A DNA stretch of 35,165 bases. Origin: Ignavibacterium sp. (GTDB lineage Bacteria > Bacteroidota > Ignavibacteria > Ignavibacteriales > Ignavibacteriaceae). Position 1 is the stretch's first letter. Each line of letters begins with the position of its first letter. The position numbers were made by a program, and so were the translations under genes. The DNA lies in the NCBI GenBank assembly GCA_018059515.1, contig JAGOXU010000005.1:1-35165 (forward strand). Reading direction: 5' to 3'. The notes below the pieces were generated by a model that worked only from the letters and a program-made list of their open reading frames with translations, was not told the origin of the DNA and made no database searches. This document shows, piece after piece, positions 27,282-30,637 of this stretch.

Positions 27282-27301
27282 CCACGACCTTTAGGTCGTG
27301 G
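27282..27301. repeat. Left outer REP-like palindrome
   Basis: A 9-bp perfect stem (CCACGACCT/AGGTCGTGG) encloses a 2-base centre. It is 12 bases downstream of the hydrolase stop and could also end its transcript. Confidence 0.8.
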
Positions 27302-27343
27302 AAAAAGGTAAAACAAAATACACGGCTTTAGCCAAAAGAAAAG

Positions 27344-27766
27344 ATGCCCTTTACTAAAATTTGGATACATGTAATCTGGTCTACTAAGAACAGAGAAAAG
27401 ATAATATCTCAAGAATTAAAACCATTACTTCTTGAACATATTGTTGAAAACGCAAAACATAAAGGGATATTTATCAAAGTCATAAATTGTATGAGTGATC
27501 ATATCCATTTATTGATTTCACTTGGGCGAGAGCAATCAATTAGTACAGTTGTTATGTTGATAAAAGGTGAATCTTCGCATTGGGTAAATAAGGAGAAATT
27601 GCTCAAGTGTAAATTTGAATGGCAAGATGAATATATTGCTATTTCTGTAAGTGAATCATTGGTTGAAAAAGTGTTCGATTATATTAAAAATCAGGACGAG
27701 CATCATAAAGTTAAAAGTTTTGAAGAAGAATATAATCTATTCGTAAAAAAGTATAATTTTGGCTAA
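27344..27766 (+). CDS. Y1 (HUH) transposase, REP-associated/IS200-like
   Basis: The 140-residue protein is a single Y1_Tnp domain that nicks and joins single-stranded DNA. The HUH metal motif is D-H-I-H-L-L-I-S near residue 53. The catalytic Tyr is in the C-terminal helix F-D-Y-I-K-N-Q-D-E-H-H near 113. The opening (F-T-K-I-W-I-H-V-I-W-S-T-K-N-R) and K-F-E-W-Q-D-E-Y are also usual. All key residues are present and the length is full, so it looks functional. ATG 27344 follows an inner palindrome, and the TAA stop is embedded in the matching palindrome at the other end. No TnpB/IscB-like partner gene is present. Confidence 0.92.
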   Translation: MPFTKIWIHVIWSTKNREKIISQELKPLLLEHIVENAKHKGIFIKVINCMSDHIHLLISLGREQSISTVVMLIKGESSHWVNKEKLLKCKFEWQDEYIAISVSESLVEKVFDYIKNQDEHHKVKSFEEEYNLFVKKYNFG

Positions 27767-27792
27767 AGCCAAGTATTGTTAATACTAATCAT

Positions 27793-27812
27793 CCACGACC
27801 TAAAGGTCGTGG
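27793..27812. repeat. Right outer REP-like palindrome
   Basis: This is the exact reverse complement of the left outer palindrome, ending 25 bases before the next gene. Transcripts of the downstream electron-transfer gene coming from the left would have to cross it. Confidence 0.8.
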
Positions 27813-29866: not shown

Positions 29867-30058
29867 ATGGAAAAATTCGATCAATTAGTACAGTTCGTTC
29901 AAAGTCTGGAAGTTGATTTCCAAAAATTTTATGTGAAAGAACAAGCTGCTGCAGGTACACGTGTGCGCAAAGGCTTAAGCGATCTCAGAAAATTATGTCA
30001 GGAAATCAGAAATAACGTTCAAGACGTTAAAGCTGAAAGAAAAGCTCCTAAAGTATAA
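29867..30058 (+). CDS. Histone H1-like small protein (Hc1 family)
   Basis: This small 63-residue protein is rich in Lys and Arg. It begins M-E-K-F-D-Q-L-V-Q-F-V-Q-S-L-E-V-D-F-Q-K-F-Y, followed by A-A-A-G-T-R-V-R-K-G-L-S-D-L and Q-E-I-R-N-N-V-Q-D-V-K. This matches the short Bacteroidota proteins annotated as histone H1/Hc1-like. They are thought to bind DNA as abundant nucleoid proteins; the family link is by sequence pattern, and binding is inferred. The gene starts 28 bases after the electron-transfer gene and ends before a terminator. A strong Shine-Dalgarno suggests high expression. Confidence 0.88.
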   Translation: MEKFDQLVQFVQSLEVDFQKFYVKEQAAAGTRVRKGLSDLRKLCQEIRNNVQDVKAERKAPKV

Positions 30059-30083: not shown

Positions 30084-30123
30084 AAGGCTGGGTTAGTAAT
30101 AATAGCTCAGCCTTCTTTTGTTT
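30084..30123 (+). terminator. Rho-independent terminator after the H1-like gene
   Basis: The arms 30084-30095 and 30103-30114 form a 12-bp stem with two G-U pairs and a 7-base loop, followed by CTTTTGTTTT. Confidence 0.8.
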
Positions 30124-30251
30124 TGGATAATTTTGTTGTCAAATAATTTTATTCAATTAAATTCTTTATTGTTAAAATAACTCGACAGAAAAAAAAGTCG
30201 TTTGCAAAAATAATTTGGTGAAATAAAAAACTTTGGCTAAGAAATAAAAAT

Positions 30252-30601
30252 GTCCCATTAGGGACAAAATGTTGTTAACAAAAGTATAAAGAAAACATAA
30301 AAGTCCCGTTAGGGACAAAATGTTGTTAACAAAAGTATAAAGAAAACATAAAAGTCCCGTTAGGGACGAAATGTTGTTAACAAAAAGTATAAAGAAAACC
30401 TAAAAGTCCCGTTAGGGACGAAATGTTGTTAACAAAAGTAGAGAGAAAACTTAGAAGTCCCGATAGGGACGAAATGTTGTTAACAAAAGTAGAGAGAAAA
30501 CTTAGAAGTCCCGTTAGGGATGAAATGTTGTTAACAAAAGTATAAAGAAAACATAAAAGTCCCGTTAGGGATGAAATGTTGTTAAAAGTCCCGTTAGGGA
30601 C
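30252..30601. repeat. Tandem array of 51-bp units, each with two dyads
   Basis: Eight hairpin cores of the form GTCCCGTTAGGGAC start at 30252, 30303, 30354, 30406, 30457, 30508, 30559 and 30588. The spacing is 51, 51, 52, 51, 51, 51 and finally 29, so the last unit is cut short. Between cores, units carry a second palindrome, TTGTTAACAA, and one of two A-rich linkers: a TATAAAG type after cores 1, 2, 3 and 6, and a GAGAGAA type after cores 4 and 5. Cores 1 and 5 differ in the loop, and cores 6 and 7 end GGGAT. The array fills most of the 579-base gene-free stretch 30059-30637. The AT-rich part 30126-30251 shows nothing else. Confidence 0.92.
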
Positions 30602-30637
30602 GAAATAAGAAGTTAGATTTTTCAATAAATCCAAAAT

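Follow-up and report, generated by a model that had tools for sequence, protein, structure and literature searches.

Y1/HUH transposases of the IS608 and ISDra2 type work as dimers on single-stranded DNA and recognize hairpins. A counterpart of this recognition of hairpins and single-stranded DNA has been described for TnpAREP (PMC8266576). Among the TnpA-Y1 transposases, subclass 1.2 is defined by the signature Y---Q--HH and has been described, in a survey of 2018, as generally lacking the typical IS200 terminal structures (PMC6006769). The CGTC-tagged class of REPs, whose reported hosts include Chlorobi and Bacteroidetes, has an unpaired CGTC tag and stems of 8–9 bp that start with two A/T positions; its dimers are mostly inverted (HH), and it is not associated with a transposase (PMC3733652).

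The hairpin array analyzed here lies in a window of 35,165 nucleotides (the whole stretch of DNA that was analyzed), which is one contig of a draft Ignavibacterium sp. genome (3.42 Mb, 85.6 per cent complete, 358 contigs). Very probably, the array is one end of a Y1/HUH single-strand transposase element of the TnpA subclass 1.2 type, an end that is non-autonomous and has been amplified in tandem.

Units and layout of the array

Between positions 30252 and 30601, eight hairpins of the form GTCCC-N4-GGGAY start at 30252, 30303, 30354, 30406, 30457, 30508, 30559, and 30588, with successive spacings of 51, 51, 52, 51, 51, 51, and 29 bases. All eight are oriented head to tail. In terms of the two hairpin types of the family (outer, A; inner, B), the array consists of seven A units followed by one B unit; the tail of units 1–7 is RAAATGTTGTTAA(CAAAAG...), and that of unit 8 is GAAATAAG.

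30252..30265, + strand: hairpin unit 1, A type, GTCCCATTAGGGAC
30266..30282, + strand: A tail of unit 1, AAAATGTTGTTAACAAA; recurs in units 2–6, truncated in unit 7
30303..30316, + strand: hairpin unit 2, A type
30354..30367, + strand: hairpin unit 3, A type
30406..30419, + strand: hairpin unit 4, A type
30457..30470, + strand: hairpin unit 5, A type, loop GATA
30508..30521, + strand: hairpin unit 6, A type, GGGAT
30559..30572, + strand: hairpin unit 7, A type, GGGAT; 3' linker shortened, next hairpin starts at +29 bp
30588..30606, + strand: hairpin unit 8 plus GAAAT, terminal B type; tail without the A tail, like the last unit of the C103 and C351 arrays

Dinucleotide shuffles of the window contain on average 0.14 such hairpins and never reach eight, and Tandem Repeats Finder reports a repeat at 30248–30585 with a period of 51, 6.6 copies, and 94 per cent matches. 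Together with the hairpin positions, these results confirm the near-strict 51-base period (with one interval of 52 and a last one of 29) noted in a preliminary description of this DNA. Direct reading of the sequence also bears out its order of two inner linker types (A, A, A, B, B, A, letters unrelated to the hairpin types), and the two units with GGGAT retain a G-T/G-U pair, as it had proposed. A small deletion within unit 7 apparently accounts for the 29-base last interval. Measured against the CRISPR criterion, the array has no unique spacers, as the sequence separating the hairpins is part of the repeat.

The array folds far more stably than its shuffles, both as DNA (z = -10.4) and as RNA (z = -11.5), and on the minus strand four of its hairpins are terminator-like. 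Side effects on transcription are therefore possible. An Rfam search of the window gave no match at the gathering threshold.

Insertion site and other copies in the genome

Three congeners that keep the neighboring genes lack the array at the orthologous site, and the array therefore sits on a species-specific insertion of approximately 0.5 kb. In two of these genomes (G001 and G004), the site is empty, with the PGA_cap start codon almost directly after the terminator.

30115..30633, no strand: species-specific insertion holding the array, from the upstream terminator to the PGA_cap start codon; boundaries approximate

Upstream of the insertion lie a gene for a small basic Hc1-like protein (29867–30058) and a clear terminator (30084–30114), both conserved in the congeners. 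In congener G003 (L096), the gap between the Hc1-like gene and PGA_cap holds a different short insertion, GTCATTCCGAACTTGTTTCGGAATCTC..., which suggests that this gap tolerates insertions. An inverted repeat, TTTTGGAT / ATCCAAAA, is present near both insertion ends (30122–30129 and 30627–30634) and may be due to chance in A/T-rich DNA. No target-site signature was established at the array.

Elsewhere in the source genome, the array hairpin recurs in small numbers, including other short arrays. The array on contig C103 has four units spaced 51, 51, and approximately 50 bp apart, and in two of the four the stem is GTCCT/AGGAC, which is a paired change; covariation among the units of this species alone is weak, with 33 of 500 shuffles scoring equally high. 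The C351 array has spacings of 100, 100, and 53, and single copies of the hairpin are found on C141 and C238. Each of the three arrays (window, C103, and C351) closes with a unit of the B type that lacks the A tail and ends GAAATA-RG. Separately, the stretch after each hairpin of the C103 array (L001, 1070–1190) can form a second hairpin, ATTGCT...AGCAAT or ATTGTT...AACAAT, with one apparent paired change.

The location of the array directly before the PGA_cap start, the folding as RNA, and the terminator-like minus-strand hairpins would fit a transcribed leader whose stacked RNA hairpins regulate PGA_cap downstream or prevent antisense transcription. We nevertheless regard this explanation as unlikely, given that congeners do not conserve the array at this locus, that Rfam has no counterpart, and that the same units occur in other contexts. 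An effect on the leader could also be a secondary result of the insertion, and as such it is compatible with the array being an amplified transposase end.

The window's own Y1_Tnp gene

Neither a tnpA gene nor a mirrored partner end was found beside the window array. We assessed a Y1_Tnp gene located 2.4 kb upstream as a potential partner of the array and discounted it, as it belongs to another clade and has a different hairpin.

27282..27333, + strand: left mirrored hairpin pair of the Y1_Tnp gene, CCACGACCTTTAGGTCGTGG then GGCTTTAGCC, centers 37 bp apart
27344..27766, + strand: Y1_Tnp (PF01797) gene, same broad family, other clade, with its own hairpins
27761..27812, + strand: right mirrored hairpin pair of the Y1_Tnp gene, GGCTAAAGCC then CCACGACCTAAAGGTCGTGG, centers 37 bp apart

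The two pairs are exact mirror images of each other, and their hairpins are of a second type within this broad family. This gene is probably not the cognate transposase of the array. No member of the TnpA clade that is associated with GTCCC hairpins (see below) was found in the assembled source genome, which is incomplete at the level given above.

Paired hairpins at the ends of tnpA genes in relatives

Y1_Tnp genes (PF01797) are present in 53 of the 59 genomes of relatives, and we inspected the flanks of 89 of them. In relatives, the hairpin flanks IS200-like Y1 tnpA genes on both sides, in mirrored A-B pairs. Read inward, an element end consists of the outer hairpin A (tail ATATTTRTAG), approximately 51 bp, the inner hairpin B (tail GAWATA), and then tnpA.

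Hairpins with the GTCCC stem of the window array occur at tnpA ends in two congeners (G003 and G004) and three further relatives (G019, G033, and G038). Locus L132 of G033 holds a full element, in the order A, B, tnpA, B', A'. Its left end has a GTCCC hairpin with the tail GATATGTTTATAGAA, 53 bp, a GTCCC hairpin with the tail GAAATAG, and the tnpA start, and its right end has the same two hairpins mirrored, with approximately 51 bp between their centers. In congener G004 (L069), A and B are 51 bp apart beside tnpA, and tandem 195-bp repeats that each contain the A and B hairpins adjoin the gene (positions 1985–2440 of the locus). The A tail in congener G003 (L067), AAAATATTGTTAGATAAA, is intermediate between the family tail and the window's TTGTTAAC. 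Gene-less mirrored copies of approximately 200 bp are found in G035 (L293 and L294). A dispersed element of approximately 45 bp, GTCCCTTTAGGGACGAAATAAAAAATATATTGGACAGATATG, was also observed at about nine places in G051 (L031, L037, L040, L042, L044, L046, and L049–L051), with similar ends in G032 and G021.

Under a strict GTCCC filter, eight TnpA loci remained, of which six fall into one eight-row clade (SH-aLRT support of 98). The solved homologs of this clade are IS200/IS605 transposases (best match 2xm3/2xma, E = 3e-11; ISHp608 2a6m, 1.3e-5). The stems are not strictly clade-specific, and GTCCC is also found beside other TnpA clades.

Generality of the pairs and of their spacing

In a scan of 395 genomes of the phylum for two GTCCC hairpins, with 34–64 bp allowed between them, pairs were found exclusively at 51–54 bp, in six genomes, with zero control matches. 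When the stem was not fixed, 170 tnpA flanks had 1.62 hairpins per 200 bp, compared to 0.06 in shuffled sequence, and 39 of their 119 pairs were 50–54 bp apart, compared to 7.9 expected from cross-locus pairs. The analysis was replicated on 80 named loci from the genome collection (Ignavibacteria, Melioribacteraceae, Flavobacterium, Bacteroidales, Chitinophagaceae, Latescibacterota, and others), with 1.59 hairpins per flank, compared to 0.08 in shuffled sequence and 0.17 in distal control stretches. At these loci, 63 of 107 pairs were 50–54 bp apart, a count scored on perfect hairpins and over loci of which related ones are not independent. An A-B pair is present on at least one side in 56 of the 80 loci and on both sides in 21. 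The stems vary (GTCCC, ATCCC, GCTCC, ACTCC, GTTCC, and GTGCC), with A often unlike B; because spacing was scored on perfect hairpins, this variety is no independent test of covariation. When the left and right flanks of tnpA loci were compared, mirrored 11-mers or longer were common to both in 48 per cent of loci, compared to 5.4 per cent of mismatched pairs. Chains of at least three hairpins at steps of approximately 50 bp occur in 14 of 322 flanks (approximately 4 per cent; for example, L158 and L227), and amplification beside tnpA is therefore recurrent.

The A tail has the consensus NAAATATTTRTAGAA across loci, and the unit 1 tail is a diverged version of it. That tail includes TTGTTAACAA, which the preliminary description took for a second palindrome. 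The palindrome is present in units 1–6 but is not conserved as such in the family: a perfect 10-bp palindrome is found in only 2 of 133 A tails, with ATATTTRTAGAA as the consensus. The supposed second dyad is merely the version of the conserved A tail in this species.

The regular period, together with the Hc1-like gene just upstream, could point to a protein-binding platform, for example for a nucleoid protein, with the dyads on one face of the duplex. The dyads had indeed been thought to face nearly the same side of the helix. However, 51 bp corresponds to 4.86 turns at 10.5 bp per turn, so that each dyad is rotated by approximately 51 degrees from the previous one and the eight do not share a face. 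Across loci, the spacing of hairpin centers peaks at 48–55 bp, a range wider than half a turn, which makes a fixed helical face unlikely. Since tnpA ends also carry the hairpins and congeners do not conserve the array at this site, we consider a binding platform very unlikely.

A random short palindrome multiplied by replication slippage, unrelated to any system, would likewise be absent from the orthologous site of congeners, and the arrangement of the two linker types in blocks fits slippage or recombination. According to the preliminary description, a unit absent from relatives and without a constant period elsewhere would be such a chance local expansion. The array is absent at the congeners' locus, but the hairpin and its period of approximately 51 bp are widespread elsewhere, which contradicts chance expansion. 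The same hairpin, tail grammar, and spacing recur beside tnpA across phyla and in the other arrays of the source genome, and this independent recurrence of the module largely refutes a chance origin, which we deem exceedingly improbable. Slippage may explain the growth in copy number but not the origin of the unit. Of the three readings offered originally (protein platform, folded RNA, and REP-type amplification), the last is supported, in the form of a Y1/IS200-like end repeat amplified head to tail.

A model of the array as an amplified transposase end

Our reading rests on how the ends are built, on their occurrence with tnpA, on the spacing and the amplification observed, and on the empty site in congeners. 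Because the array reads as seven A units and then B, it corresponds to a transposase end with an amplified A unit and no gene beside it. In the intact elements, tnpA lies between two mirrored ends, each made of two direct hairpins, A (with a stem such as GTCCC) and B. At the array, no tnpA is left, and the seven A units with their terminal B unit probably form a solo end that was inserted after the terminator and before the PGA_cap gene. A TnpA, most likely a dimer, may recognize the A-B pair on single-stranded DNA, and the spacing of approximately 51 nt may reflect the span that the enzyme can bridge. The element would have been mobile and would have arrived through the activity of such a TnpA. 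The A unit may then have been multiplied by slippage or recombination, which would suffice, or possibly by TnpA-driven joining.

Beyond this locus, paired hairpins approximately 51 bases apart are a widespread feature of the Y1 TnpA family in Bacteroidota and related bacteria, and one that is apparently undescribed. We found no description of A-B hairpin pairs in the literature searched, for which the exact hairpin strings were also used (subscription papers and ISfinder were outside its scope). We lean, by a small degree, toward the view that subclass 1.2 Y1 transposases constitute a distinct REPtron-like system of Bacteroidota and neighboring phyla, in which two direct hairpins spaced by approximately 51 nt, with a conserved TATTTRTAG tail, serve as the recognition unit. 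On this view, the enzyme would hold on to both hairpins, and the unit would readily be amplified head to tail, yielding arrays such as that of the window. Subclass 1.2 TnpAs are widespread in Bacteroidota, and their DNA partner is not described in the literature searched; following the array revealed for them a simple end structure whose spacing is fixed. This structure also provides an origin for short, regularly spaced hairpin arrays in such genomes, which might otherwise be read as regulatory RNAs, as CRISPR-like arrays, or as nucleoid sites.

Comparison with known systems

Like the REPs, REPtrons, and REPINs of class 2 TnpAREP, the hairpins described here are short and intergenic, flank a Y1 transposase gene, and have dispersed copies and gene-less mirrored derivatives. 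Unlike those REPs, they form direct A-B pairs approximately 51 bp apart at each end, and they lack GT[AG]G 5' of the hairpin foot, where the sequence is A/T-rich, with TRTAG instead located 3' of hairpin A. The strict pattern has 0–26 copies per genome, whereas class 2 REPs usually exceed 100. REPINs and BIMEs are inverted REP pairs, in contrast to the uniform orientation of the window units, although mirrored gene-less copies do exist in G035.

As in CGTC-tagged REPs such as dRS3 (PMC3733652), the palindrome reads CGTCCC on one strand. The comparable size of the intergenic palindromes, the association with a Y1 transposase, and a reverse complement that begins with CGTC would speak for a classical GTAG or CGTC REP family or a BIME. 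Yet there is no GTAG at the hairpin foot, the CGTC lies partly inside the 5-bp GTCCC stem rather than in an unpaired tag, the units are not inverted pairs, the copy number is low, and the TnpA motif is Y---Q--HH, not the Y---NP of class 2 TnpAREP (PMC3733652, PMC6006769). We therefore give assignment to a classical family almost no credence and retain the reading as an amplified transposase end.

With IS200/IS605 elements (IS608 and ISDra2), the system shares a homologous TnpA and subterminal hairpins; it differs in having two hairpins per end, tandem amplification, and solo ends, and no intact element is present at the array. Another close match is TnpA-Y1 subclass 1.2 (PMC6006769): the associated TnpAs are short, occur mainly in Bacteroidota, and carry HUH and the Y---Q--HH signature (79 of 89 TnpAs in relatives and 78 of 80 at the named loci). 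In contrast to the published description of the subclass, an A-B pair accompanies one or both flanks in approximately half to 70 per cent of the loci examined here. The window array differs from a subclass 1.2 element in having no adjoining cognate tnpA, and it conforms to the end structure found here, with A-type units 1–7, a B-type unit 8, and a spacing of 51 that shortens to 29 at the last interval.
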